The notes under the pieces are model-generated. The model saw only the letters and a list, made by a program, of their open reading frames with translations. It did no database searches and had not been told where the DNA came from. A program made the translations under genes and the position numbers. From NCBI GenBank assembly GCA_034439655.1, contig JAWXAU010000090.1:1-38668 (forward strand): a stretch of 38,668 nt of DNA, read 5' to 3'. This stretch comes from Bacteroidota bacterium. Its GTDB lineage: Bacteria; Bacteroidota; Bacteroidia; UKL13-3. This document shows positions 322 to 37,757 of this stretch, in pieces. Position 1 is the stretch's first letter; the number at the start of each line of letters is the position of its first letter.

Positions 322-420
322 GGGCGTGTGCCGAAGCGGCACCGGGCTATTCGCTGCAATCTTTTTTTGCTCGCCCACAGCCAAACACAAAAAAAGGATT
401 TCCGCTACTATCCCTCACGC
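322..420. repeat. GGGCGTG...CTCACGC intergenic repeat
   Basis: This is a GC-richer block inside AT-rich DNA. It starts GGGCGTGTGCCG, contains CGGGCTAT and AAAAAGGATTTCCGCTACTA, and ends CCCTCACGC. From memory, this wording matches a dispersed repeat common downstream of genes in Bacteroidota genomes; this could not be verified here. It lies just past the 3' end of the minus-strand gene at 473. The short open frame across it is not convincing as a protein. Confidence 0.5.
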
Positions 421-472
421 GGCTAAGGCGTCCTACGTCACAATGAATTCAAAATGTAATTCTATAAATTTG

Positions 473-30142: not shown

Positions 30143-30178
30143 ATAATATATAACAAGAGTTTTGGTTGTTTGGTTTTT

Positions 30179-30311
30179 ATACCGACACTCAATATATAAT
30201 AGTCCAAAAGAAAGGACTAATCCCGAATGCTTTCGGGATGTAGTTCGGCATTACCATTCTACAAACCAATCCGCCACAGGTGGAGAACTATTTTAGTTTA
30301 AGAATTGGTAT
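30179..30311. mobile_element. MITE copy A
   Basis: A 133-bp element that is nearly identical to 37369-37487. It starts ATACCGACACTCAA and ends TTAAGAATTGGTAT, giving imperfect terminal inverted repeats (ATACC.A). Inside are nested inverted repeats: TAGTTC (30241-30246) / GAACTA (30285-30290) and an internal TCCCGAA/TTTCGGGA hairpin. It has no coding capacity. Relative to copy B it carries 15 extra bp in the TCCCGAA arm. Confidence 0.8.
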
Positions 30312-30465
30312 TATATATGCGTTAGGAAGGATTAATGCTCTTGTTCCGATAGCTATCGGGAGTGTGTTTTCACCAACCACAATCGTAATTATTTCTCGAC
30401 AAAATAAACGGTTTCGGTTTATATATACGAAAGGAAGGATTTTTCAGATTTGCTATTATACAATA
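30312..30465. other. Non-coding gap with one palindrome
   Basis: With the MITE this gap makes the 30143-30465 region gene-free. It holds the palindrome CCGATAGCTATCGG (30347-30360), identical to 29713-29726, and a repeated GGAAGGATT word. No toxin gene for the neighbouring antitoxin is present here. Confidence 0.5.
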
Positions 30466-33100: not shown

Positions 33101-33826
33101 TTATATAGTAGTTTTTAATTTTCTTTTATACATTTGAATGGTGTTTTCGAATCCGTAATAAATGCTATCGCAAATTAAAGCATGGCCAATAGAAACCTCC
33201 AATAAATTTGGAATTTGTTGCTTGAAAAATTCGAGATTATTTAGGTCGAGGTCGTGGCCTGCATTAATACCCAGACCCATGTTGTTTGCCACATTGGCGG
33301 CATTTATATAATCCTTTACAGCTTCATTTCTATTTTTATTATAATGATGTGCATAAGGACCTGTATATAATTCTACACGGTCAGTTCCCGTAGCTTTTGC
33401 TGCTTCAACCATGCGTTCATTGGCATTGCAAAAAATGGAAACACGGATATTATTTTCCCTGAATTGAGAAATTATATCTTTTAAAAATGAAGCATGGGTA
33501 ATCGTGTCCCATCCTTGGTCTGAAGTAAGTGCATGGTCAGCATCGGGAACCAAGGTAACTTGATTAGGTTTTACTTGTAATACCAGTTTTATAAACTCTT
33601 CAAGGGGATTTCCTTCAATATTAAATTCAGTGGTCACTACTTTTTTTAGTTCAAAAACATCATCATAACTAATATGTCTTTGGTCGGGGCGGGGATGCAC
33701 CGTAATACCATCGGCACCAAAACGTTCAGCATCCTGTGCGGCTTTAACCACATCAGGATTATTGCCGCCACGAGAATTACGTAGGGTTGCAAATTTGTTG
33801 ATGTTTACACTGAGCTTGGTGTGCAT
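33101..33826 (-). CDS. pdxJ: Pyridoxine 5'-phosphate synthase PdxJ
   Basis: A 241-residue TIM-barrel enzyme that condenses 1-deoxyxylulose 5-phosphate with 3-amino-2-oxopropyl phosphate to make vitamin B6 phosphate. Family landmarks are LSVNINKFATLRNSRGGNNP, FGADGITVHPRPDQRHI, PNQVTLVPDADHALTSDQGW, RVELYTGPYAHHY, GINAGHDLDLNNL and EVSIGHALICDSIYYGFENT. Length and conservation are normal. The ATG at 33826 is preceded by TACCTTTG at 33839-33832. The secreted PepSY-like gene follows after 4 bp. Confidence 0.97.
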   Translation of the reverse strand: MHTKLSVNINKFATLRNSRGGNNPDVVKAAQDAERFGADGITVHPRPDQRHISYDDVFELKKVVTTEFNIEGNPLEEFIKLVLQVKPNQVTLVPDADHALTSDQGWDTITHASFLKDIISQFRENNIRVSIFCNANERMVEAAKATGTDRVELYTGPYAHHYNKNRNEAVKDYINAANVANNMGLGINAGHDLDLNNLEFFKQQIPNLLEVSIGHALICDSIYYGFENTIQMYKRKLKTTI

Positions 33827-33831
33827 GGCTG

Positions 33832-33839
33832 CAAAGGTA
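33832..33839 (-). promoter_or_regulatory. -7 promoter element of pdxJ
   Basis: TACCTTTG on the minus strand matches TAnnTTTG and lies only 5 bp from the ATG at 33826, so the mRNA is probably leaderless or nearly so. The nearest upstream TTTG is 15 bp away, shorter than usual. Confidence 0.45.
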
Positions 33840-33917
33840 TTTTAAAAATACGAGCAAAAATATATAATGTTTGATTTGAAGAAATCAAGTCTGAATTTTT
33901 TAGACCTTTACCAAACA

Positions 33918-34202
33918 TCATTCAAAAAGATTTTTCATCAAACTCGCGGAATGATGAACAGTCAAAATATATACAGTTTCAATTTCTAAAAAATATATAA
34001 TTCTGTAATTTCCCTCTATCAATTTCCCTATATTTTTATTATTATATTCGGTAACAAATTTTCCAGATTTGGGATGTGTTTTTAATTTTTCAACTCTTTT
34101 ATTTATTCTTTGAACTCATTGTTCTGTCTAGCGTGTACTATCATGTGTAATGTAGTCTGCAATTTCATCAATATCTGCAAGTGACCGCTCGGTCCAAACC
34201 AT
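33918..34202 (-). pseudogene. ParE/RelE-family toxin with two in-frame stops
   Basis: One uninterrupted frame of 95 codons from ATG 34202 to TGA 33918 reads MVWTERSLADIDEIADYITH, DSTR, stop, TEQ, stop, VQRINKRVEKLKTHPKSG, then IGKLIEGNYRIIYFLEIE and ILTVHHSASLMKNLFE. This is a complete ParE-type toxin (normal length, conserved EGNYRI.Y and VHH motifs) except for TAG at codon 25 (34128-34130, where Tyr is usual) and TGA at codon 29 (34116-34118). There is no frameshift. The start overlaps the antitoxin frame, the standard antitoxin-toxin order. Confidence 0.88.
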
Positions 34203-34381
34203 TTGAGCCGTTTGCTCATGCGTTTCTTTGCTGCTTCATACGATACTGTTTTCTGCTCTTTAACTTGCTGCAAACCTTCTTCAATTTTTTGTATCAATAC
34301 AAGTCTATTAATTGGTTCATCAACAGAAAATTTTTCGGGCAGATTTTTAATGGTATCAAGCAATTGATTTTTCCCAATCAC
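34103..34381 (-). CDS. Antitoxin of the dead ParE module
   Basis: A 92-residue frame. Residues 1-60 (GTG start at 34381; NQLLDTIKNLPEKFSVDEPI ... SYEAAKKRMSKRLKW) match the small helical antitoxins that precede ParE toxins in Bacteroidota. Residues ~61-92 (FGPSGHLQILMKLQ ...) are the out-of-frame reading of the toxin's 5' end, so the functional antitoxin probably ends near residue 60 or has lost its own stop. The cognate toxin is inactivated by two nonsense codons. The GTG start is tentative. Confidence 0.75.
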   Translation of the reverse strand: MIGKNQLLDTIKNLPEKFSVDEPINRLVLIQKIEEGLQQVKEQKTVSYEAAKKRMSKRLKWFGPSGHLQILMKLQTTLHMIVHARQNNEFKE

Positions 34382-34501
34382 ACTTCAAAAATAAATTATT
34401 ATTTTCAAATTAGCTCTAAGATTTTTATTTGAATGAAGTATTAAATTTGTGAATATTAATGAATTCAATACTAGCAACTTAGATTATTTTTTCATTTTAT
34501 T

Positions 34502-34527
34502 GAACAAATAGTTATTTTTATTTGTTC
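34502..34527. promoter_or_regulatory. 9-8-9 inverted repeat upstream of iscS (candidate operator)
   Basis: GAACAAATA (34502-34510) pairs perfectly with TATTTGTTC (34519-34527), centred 43 bp before the iscS ATG. Position and symmetry fit a regulator site controlling the isc operon, but no iscR-like gene is in the window. It could also belong to an upstream terminator. Confidence 0.5.
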
Positions 34528-34557
34528 TAAATAAGCGAAATTTGCATTACAATAATC

Positions 34558-35772
34558 ATGTTAAAACTACCTATATACTTAGACAATAACGCCACCACCC
34601 CCTGTGACCCAAGGGTTGTAGAGGCGATGATACCTTATTTCACCAATAACTTTGGCAATGCCGCAAGCCGCAACCATGCATTTGGCTGGCAGGCTGAAGA
34701 AGCTGTTGACTATGCCCGTGAACAAGTGGCTCGCCTCATTAACGCTGACCCTAAAGAAATTATTTTTACAAGCGGAGCAACGGAAGCTGATAACTTGGCT
34801 ATTAAAGGTGTGTTCGAAATGTATCGTGAAAAAGGCAATCATATCATCACCGTAAAAACAGAACATAAAGCCGTACTTGATACGTGCAAACATATAGAAA
34901 AAATGGGTGCAGAAATTACGTTTTTGCATGTGCGTGAAGATGGTCTTATCAATTTGGAAGAATTGGAGGCATCTATCAAACCAACTACTATTTTGGTGTC
35001 GTTGATGTATGCCAATAACGAAATTGGGGTATTGCAACCCATCAAAGAAATATCTGCAATTTGCAAAAAACATGGCGTATTATTATTTACGGATGCTACG
35101 CAAGCAGTAGGCAAAATACCTGTAGATGTGCAAGCAGATGGAATTGATTTAATGTCGTTTACTGCTCATAAGATGTATGGCCCCAAAGGTGTCGGAGCAT
35201 TATATGTTCGTCGTAAAAACCCACGTGTAAAAGTAACTTCGCAAATGGACGGCGGAGGCCACGAACGTGGTATGCGTTCAGGCACTTTAAATGTGCCAGG
35301 CATTGTAGGTTTTGGTAAAGCGTGCGAAATATGTATGACCGATATGGAAAGTGATAATATTCGTATTAAAGCTTTGCGTGATAAATTGGAAAATACATTA
35401 TTGAAAATGGAAGAAACTTATTTGAACGGAAATAAAGAACATCGTTTGCCGCAAGTAGCTAATATATCATTTAAATATGTAGAAGGCGAAGGTTTGTTGA
35501 TGGGTGTAAAAGATATCGCACTCTCTAGCGGATCAGCCTGTACTTCTGCATCTCTCGAACCATCTTATGTTTTAAAATCATTAGGTTTGGATGATGAGTT
35601 GGCCCACTCAAGTTTGCGTTTTGGCTTGGGAAGATTCACCACCGAAGAAGAAGTAGATTTTGCGATAGACCAAGTAACAACTGCCGTAAATAAACTTCGT
35701 GAAATGAGTCCACTTTGGGAAATGTTTAAAGAAGGAATTGATTTAAAGAGTATAGACTGGCAGGAACACTAA
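34558..35772 (+). CDS. iscS: Cysteine desulfurase IscS
   Basis: A 404-residue PLP enzyme that takes sulfur from cysteine for Fe-S cluster assembly and tRNA thiolation. Conserved points are YLDNNATTP (5' substrate loop), [15 protein letters not shown]103 in [10 protein letters not shown], the PLP lysine K205 in [12 protein letters not shown], and the catalytic C328 in [17 protein letters not shown]. The end [21 protein letters not shown] is typical IscS, not SufS or NifS. It is the first gene of iscS-iscU-iscA. Its stop codon is separated by one base from the terminal repeat of an inserted element. Confidence 0.98.
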
Positions 35773-35773
35773 C

Positions 35774-36304
35774 ATTTAATGATTGGATGAATTAAGATTT
35801 AACGATGTAGGAAGATATGTATAAATGAAGAATCGGATAAATTAATTCAGAGAACTAAAGCACAAGCAATAAAAATAATAGAATCTTTAAAAAATATAAA
35901 ATATGATACAAGTTCACAAGTAATGATTAAGCAATTAGTGAGATCGAGTACTTCAGTTGCAGCAAACTATCGATCTTGTCTAAGAGCTAAATCAAAACCA
36001 GACTTCATCTCAAAAATATCTACTGTAGTTGAAGAGAGTGATGAAACATTATTTTGGCTTGAAATGTTATATGAAACAAAGTACTTAGAAAAAGAAAAAT
36101 ATGAACTATTATATAACGAAAGTTAAGAAATACTTAAAATAATGTCCAAAGCAAGATCAACCGCCGCGAAAAATAAATAAACTCTTCGATAAGCCCGATA
36201 GCCTCGCTTAATCCCGATAATTATCGAGATGCGGGGGGACAGGGTGGCAATAAAATAAATCATTCAACTCAATCATTCAATCATAAATCACCAAATCATT
36301 AAAT
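35774..36304. mobile_element. IVS-like element with four-helix-bundle gene, inserted between iscS and iscU
   Basis: ATTTAATGATT (35774-35784) is exactly repeated in inverse at 36294-36304. The flanking words continue the symmetry imperfectly (GGATGA... versus TGGTGA...). The arms are low-complexity AATGATTGAATG-type DNA. The 531-bp unit starts 1 bp after the iscS stop and ends 5 bp before the iscU ATG. Inside are a decayed four-helix-bundle gene and a GC-rich block containing CGATAATTATCG. Its design recalls 23S rRNA intervening sequences, which are also hairpins carrying an S23 four-helix-bundle gene. Confidence 0.65.
35817..36180 (+). pseudogene. Four-helix-bundle (S23/IVS-type) protein, broken twice
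   Basis: The core frame reads EESDKLIQRTKAQAIKIIES, then VMIKQLVRSSTSVAANYRSC, RAKSKPDFISKISTVVEESD and ETLFWLEMLYETKYL, the hallmark of S23/four-helix-bundle proteins. ATG TAT AAA at 35817 is joined to it only if one base (T35826) is removed. Near the end, TAA at 36124-36126 cuts YNES from EILKIMSKARSTAAKNK, which completes the usual C-terminal helix and stops at 36178-36180. The intact product would be about 120 residues, the family norm. Only the 35923-36126 stretch could be translated as it stands. Confidence 0.8.
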
Positions 36305-37241: not shown

Positions 37242-37757
37242 CTATATACTTTGTACTTCCTCGTCTTCAGCAAAAGTTAGTATCATACCATTAAAATCTT
37301 GTATAGTAAATTCGGTGGCATCATAAAATGTTTTTTCGAGTCCCTTTAATACTTTGGCAAATTGTTTTATACCGAAACTCAATATATAATAGTCCAAAAG
37401 AAAGCTTTCGGGATGTAGTTCGGCATTACCATTCTACAAACCAAATCCGCCACAGGCGGAGAACTATTTTAGTTTAAGAATTGGTATTACTTCTTCAAAA
37501 AAGTCTCGAATTTTTGTTGTTCGGATATATAATAATAGAGGTCCACTGTTTTGTTCTCTGCTTAGTTCAGGCAGGTATTTGCCTAGGCTATCAAAAGTTT
37601 GAAACATGACAGTAACCTTTTCGCAAACCATCATTACCCACTCGTGGTCGGAAGTGTATGGAACGGCTATGGATAGCTGGAATCCGAGTTTTTGGTAGAA
37701 TGAAATTGTAGTTGAAAGGTCGTTTACAAAAATATTGGGATCTAAACTTTGGATTCG
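37242..37757 (-). pseudogene. VOC/glyoxalase-family gene interrupted by a MITE
   Basis: Minus-strand frame: RIQSLDPNIFVNDLSTTISF, YQKLGFQLSIAVPY, HEWVMMVCEKVTVMFQTF, GPLLLYIRTT, KIRDFFEEV, then MITE copy B, then KQFAKVLKGLEKTFYDATEF and TIQDFNGMILTFAEDEE. Without the 119-bp insert the two halves join in frame (E-E-V-I-K-Q) into a normal ~130-residue vicinal-oxygen-chelate protein (glyoxalase/bleomycin-resistance type). No ATG is visible at the expected start, so the 5' end is uncertain or also decayed. The last residues (VQSI) come from a low-complexity AAAGTATATAG word. With iscA, the MITE and the repeats it fills the 37156-37793 gap. Confidence 0.85.
37369..37487. mobile_element. MITE copy B, inserted in the VOC-family gene
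   Basis: A 119-bp element starting ATACCGAAACTCAA and ending TTAAGAATTGGTAT. It matches copy A (30179-30311) apart from a 15-bp deletion, a 1-bp insertion and a few substitutions. The host gene reads through in frame if the element plus one AT (or TAT) is removed, so a 2-3 bp target duplication is the simplest reading. No open frame; it must have been moved by a transposase encoded elsewhere. Confidence 0.85.

Follow-up and report, generated by a model that had tools for sequence, protein, structure and literature searches.

A probable relic of a chromosomal ParE-like toxin–antitoxin module between pdxJ and a cysteine-desulfurase-like gene in a Bacteroidota genome of the UKL13-3 lineage

Introduction

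When a ParE-like toxin frame is interrupted by two nonsense codons and the adjoining antitoxin frame stays open, has only the toxin been silenced, or is the whole module being lost? This question is raised by a locus on contig JAWXAU010000090.1 of the draft Bacteroidota assembly GCA_034439655.1, of which a stretch of 38,668 nucleotides (positions 1 to 38,668 of the forward strand), called here the window, was analysed. In modules of this type the stop codon of the antitoxin gene overlapping the start of the toxin gene usually couples the translation of the toxin to the termination of the antitoxin, and the fate of this overlap is central to the answer. On the basis of the comparisons described below, the locus is most probably a relic of a chromosomal type II toxin–antitoxin module, with a toxin of the ParE/RelE fold, that is decaying as a whole.

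Materials and Methods

Toxin matches were obtained in 18 of 58 relative genomes (E-value 1e-3), in 16 of 64 genomes of the family (E-value 1e-6) and in 42 of 395 genomes of the class (E-value 1e-10), the own genome being included in each count. A profile scan of genome contigs confirmed 450 loci, 80 of which were used; these were picked by the motif [LI]IxGNYRI, and conservation at the columns of this motif is therefore biased. None of the 69 stretches in a genome-contig scan with a single protein was confirmed as a relative.

A total of 143 toxin loci were read; tblastn matched 139 of them, and alignment at the start of the toxin was obtained for 134. After removal of the window and application of a threshold of at least 35% identity, 117 loci were retained, and the exclusion of duplicates left 107 distinct loci. 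Intact toxins (n = 95) were selected for the presence of the start codon and for full length. No close relatives suitable for dN/dS were found among the loci examined, the best of which is 53% identical to the window and thus too distant for a dN/dS test of neutrality. The antitoxin profile used for the search within the genus includes the row of the window itself and was run on three genomes.

Results and Discussion

Features of the Locus

The coordinates of the module, its lesions and its neighbours are detailed in Table 1.

Table 1. Features of the toxin–antitoxin locus and of the genes that flank it (window coordinates).
Feature	Position	Strand	Remarks
ParE-like toxin pseudogene	33918..34202	minus	PF05016, 48 bits; 107 distinct relatives 36–53% identical
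TGA stop closing the toxin frame	33918-33920	minus	94 codons precede
In-frame TAG, toxin codon 25	34128-34130	minus	Tyr in 88/95 intact relatives
In-frame TGA, toxin codon 29	34116-34118	minus	Gln in 37/95, Thr in 30/95; position variable
ACG at the place of the relatives' toxin start codon	34209..34211	minus	ATG or GTG in 101/107
Antitoxin frame, GTG start, 92 aa	34103..34381	minus	Residues 1–60, antitoxin family; 61–92, out-of-frame tail over the toxin
TGG at the antitoxin stop position	34199..34201	minus	Stop there in 97/107 relatives; 1–2 codons earlier in the other 10
Gap between pdxJ and cysteine-desulfurase-like gene, with module	33827..34557		731 bp; 197 bp without module in 2/2 congeners
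pdxJ	33101-33826		PF03740
Cysteine-desulfurase-like gene	34558-35772		PF00266

Two further features of the window were recorded. A frame of 67 aa at 35923-36126 (plus strand), located between the cysteine desulfurase gene and a NifU-like gene, matches the family 23S_rRNA_IVP (PF05635); the match covers positions 32–96 of 106, the C-terminal part of the family, and the frame is perhaps cut at its N-terminus. A Flavo-1 RNA (RF01705) is present at 336-428 (minus strand), scoring 64 bits (gathering score, 42).

The Toxin Frame

The profile of PF05016 (ParE_toxin) matches residues 2–86 of the toxin frame, with X written at both stops, at an E-value of 1.9e-12 (48 bits, cut-off 23), and the unmodified genome DNA scores 47.1 bits against the same profile, with '1 TGA, 1 TAG' inside the match. 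Judged by these sequence scores, the ParE-like frame is not a product of chance. A functional gene of this family has an uninterrupted frame, and the presence of TAG and TGA within the match is that of a pseudogene.

The first-pass annotation had described a ParE frame kept without an indel and interrupted by TAG at codon 25 and TGA at codon 29. Both points were confirmed: the frame comprises 94 codons and a stop, its alignment with the open toxin of locus L008 is gapless over residues 3–89, with no indel seen, both nonsense codons lie in frame, and 65 further open codons follow the second one. The residue at codon 25 in the 95 intact toxins is Tyr in 88, Phe in 4, Ala in 2 and Trp in 1, as that annotation had expected of homologues; the bulky residue that it had also expected at codon 29 is not consistently found, this position being occupied by Gln (37), Thr (30), Phe (9) or Val (7). 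An ATG is present in the remaining toxin frame at native-frame codon 4, so the loss of the usual toxin start would not be fatal by itself.

Missense changes accompany the stops. Arg59, near-invariant (94 of 95 intact relatives), is replaced by Gly and Glu60 (91 of 95) by Lys; a functional module carries the conserved Arg and Glu before the motif [LI]-I-x-G-N-Y-R-I, and the window has G and K there. Of the 23 columns conserved at 90% or more, the window toxin departs at five (start, Tyr25, Ala26, Arg59 and Glu60), and the 95 intact relatives depart at 0.97 of the same columns on average and at no more than 4; the intact set having been selected for start and length, the start and stop columns favour a reading of decay by construction. 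With these two excluded, the window shows 3 departures in 21 columns at the 90% threshold and 4 in 26 at 80% conservation, values each reached by 10 of the 95 intact relatives, and 9 in 33 at 70%, reached by only one. The missense departures of the toxin, taken alone, thus appear only moderately unusual, and toxin missense decay is for this reason suggested, not proven, by the alignment.

The Antitoxin Frame and the Lost Overlap

In all 107 distinct relatives the antitoxin gene comes first and its stop lies in the start region of the toxin. An ATG or GTG is placed five codons before a conserved Trp of the toxin in 101 of them, and the same number, 101, have both signals, antitoxin stop and toxin ATG or GTG. 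The window lacks both, with ACG and TGG in their places, and does not possess the overlap of a functional module of this ParE subfamily. Its antitoxin would have 92 residues, the last 32 beyond the stop of the relatives and out of frame over the toxin.

It had been noted at first that the antitoxin frame reads through the toxin DNA. It does so, from 34381 to 34103, because its own stop has been lost, and comparison with the relatives, all of which end the frame in the toxin start region, indicates that the overlap is itself a lesion. The same frame is open for at least 31 codons past the native antitoxin stop in 15 of the 107 relatives, which makes the open tail of the window unremarkable; selection for a long antitoxin frame was considered and rejected on these grounds.

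Antitoxins of the subfamily have about 60 aa, a near-invariant C-terminal Trp and a stop within a few codons of it, and the window has 92 aa, Arg and no stop. The Trp column holds Trp in 93 and Arg in 1 of 96 relatives. Furthermore, a helix position occupied by Leu, Val, Ile, Ala, Phe or Met in 96 of 96 relatives, and by Pro in none, is Pro in the window. The Trp codon of the antitoxin shares bases with the toxin start position, and the changes to Arg and to ACG are therefore probably one event. The window antitoxin is 43–48% identical to four of the 11 aligned antitoxins and 43% identical to a relic on contig C168 of its own genome; no antitoxin family name was obtained at the cut-off in Pfam (window protein) or in NCBIfam (window and L011 proteins).

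The most serious rival of a module decaying as a whole, although an improbable one, is that point mutations silenced the toxin and the antitoxin was kept in working order, for instance to protect by anti-addiction from related toxins that come in, a role of chromosomal antitoxins described in the available part of a review (PMC7354431). Conservation of residues 1–60 would agree with it: at the conserved columns (70% grouped conservation), an equal or larger number of departures is found in 26 of 96 relatives, so that this part is not unusually degraded overall, and the antitoxin of the window may retain some function. The lost stop, the 32-residue out-of-frame tail, the Arg at the Trp column and the Pro at the helix position argue against it, as does the relic on C168, a related antitoxin broken by two stops in the same genome. 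Regarding the first-pass claim that point mutations silenced the toxin and left the antitoxin retained, the part on the toxin, interrupted in a frame otherwise kept, stands, and retention of the antitoxin as such does not, the GTG start being added to the changes just listed.

Related Loci with Cut-Short Toxins

The toxin frame is shorter than 85 aa at 6 of the 107 loci (L013, L038, L040, L077, L088 and L151). Five of these keep the antitoxin frame open over at least 60 codons, which also speaks for a kept antitoxin as a possible outcome, and the sixth, L088, is placed at a contig end. L013 and L038, which are near relatives, may share one event. Wherever the toxin is full-length (101 loci), the antitoxin frame is open over 50 codons or more; that of L135 is of another antitoxin kind. 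Among the four of seven broken-locus pairs that were compared, L040 and L039 represent, by DNA identity, the cleanest case of toxin loss beside a kept antitoxin: the toxin of L040 has one stop, and its identity to L039, whose toxin is open, is 99.0% in the antitoxin region and 97.5% in the toxin. The decay route proposed in the first-pass annotation, with the toxin lost and the antitoxin open, exists in the family at the five loci mentioned, and not cleanly at the window. The counts over the 107 loci fit the expected order of module death.

Within the same set, the toxins of L031 and L042 are near-identical to each other and nearly match that of L041 as well, up to about residue 83, after which they are wholly unlike it. 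Their C-terminal tail may be a type IX secretion sorting tail; the toxin gene has perhaps been joined there to other sequence.

Genomic Context within the Genus

The neighbourhood of pdxJ and the desulfurase gene is the same in both congeneric genomes compared (G001 and G002), in which the gap is shorter (Table 1) and yielded no tblastn match to either protein of the module. Shared-derived sites in the cysteine desulfurase gene number 27, 21 and 11 for the three possible pairings, with G001 and G002 weakly leading, and pdxJ was not found in the flanks of about 1.5 kb of seven outgroup loci. A single gain in the species of the window is as possible as a single loss in the common ancestor of G001 and G002. 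As a signature of a mobile element at the module island, only short imperfect pairs were found, one of 22 nt (77%) near the module ends (33907-33928 and 34370-34391) and an inverted one of 12 nt, and these were taken as chance.

The antitoxin profile matched three loci in the three genomes of the genus: the window, the relic on C168 and one in G001, the latter two with internal stops. The relic of the own genome (C168:10233-10412) has two stops inside the antitoxin and a toxin that ends after 8 codons, and that of the congener (G001, C112:20487-20663) has one internal stop; both are placed at other sites of the genus, with little or no recognisable toxin behind them. The own genome has two further PF05016 matches, one on C160 with two TAA codons and one on C71 with an open toxin frame; the antitoxin profile has no match at the latter, where the frames are read as an antitoxin of a different kind.

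An intergenic dispersed repeat of about 139 bp is present in the window at 30175-30313 and at about 37365-37490, in the same orientation; its inverted ends are imperfect and its internal stems strong. The own genome contains at least 40 near full-length copies on many contigs (87–100% identity, those of the window included), 40 of the 342 first-look candidates having been scored; in the two congeneric genomes there were no matches, all 21 and 20 candidates having been scored. No Rfam family was found at the gathering score, and below it only a match at chance level. These copies suggest that a MITE- or REP-like element has undergone a species-specific burst.

A still less probable explanation of the locus is that the module is intact and its stops are sequencing or assembly errors. 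In its favour, the genome is a draft of 205 contigs, the species is represented here by this one strain, and both congeners are without a copy of the module for comparison. Against this, the lesions are several and of differing kinds, affect both genes and include near-invariant positions, with no indel seen, and the flanking genes are open and 87–95% identical to those of the congeners (desulfurase, 95% and 93%; PdxJ, 87% over 241 residues and 91% over the 88 residues present).

Probable Decay of the Module

The preferred reading, decay of the whole module, can be set out as follows. The stop/start overlap of the relatives suggests that their translation is coupled. In the window, changes affect the toxin start, the antitoxin stop and the reading of the toxin (two stops), as well as near-invariant toxin residues; taken together, they would appear to preclude a working toxin, and any antitoxin still produced would carry an unrelated tail of 32 residues. 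The module would now be drifting, and we infer the loss of function, the neutrality of this drift and any order of the events from a single sequence.

Loss of the antitoxin stop could instead have been an early and selected step, by which termination moved 96 bases downstream, toxin translation was uncoupled and silenced first, a longer antitoxin-tail protein was still made and protective, and the toxin decayed afterwards; this variant is given very little credence. Readthrough or recoding of the toxin stops by a suppressor tRNA or an altered code, favoured by the 65 open codons beyond the second stop, is hardly credible, the toxin start position and the antitoxin stop being changed too, and altered decoding is unlikely from what the window offers, in which 16 long frames checked end on TAA (14), TAG (1) or TGA (1) and no tRNA gene is found.

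Read as a module decaying as a whole, the locus is an ordinary relic of a kind in which such gene pairs are already known to end, and commonly so, and toxin loss beside an open antitoxin frame is already in print. By itself, a further type II relic matters little. It calls for caution in annotation: an antitoxin frame continuing across a broken toxin does not show the antitoxin to have been kept, and its native end must be taken from relatives.

Comparison with Known Systems

The toxin resembles type II toxins of the ParE/RelE superfamily (PF05016; chains 5cw7, 5czf, named 'ParE', and 6x0a, named 'plasmid stabilization system') through the PF05016 match over residues 2–86, and a profile of 11 toxins, the row of the window included, finds 8 solved sequences at E-values from 2.3e-9 to 0.0068. 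It differs from them in its two internal stops, the changed start-codon position and the replacement of Arg59 and Glu60. The antitoxin is similar, at the identities given above, to four of the 11 aligned antitoxins of about 60 aa, a kind whose genes precede those of these toxins, mainly in Bacteroidota, and differs in the lost stop, the 32-residue tail, the Arg at the Trp column, the Pro at the helix position and the GTG start.

Mutation-broken toxins beside antitoxin frames are described in the available parts of two publications: a parE pseudogene beside ParD at a parDE locus of Caulobacter and the yacB of Shigella flexneri, shortened by a frameshift (PMC7354431), and 2253 orphan antitoxins of Klebsiella, for which degraded modules have been proposed as a source (PMC7192599). 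The window shares with these cases a toxin broken by mutation next to an antitoxin frame, and differs from them, as far as they are described in those parts, in that the end of the antitoxin and the signals of the overlap have been changed as well.
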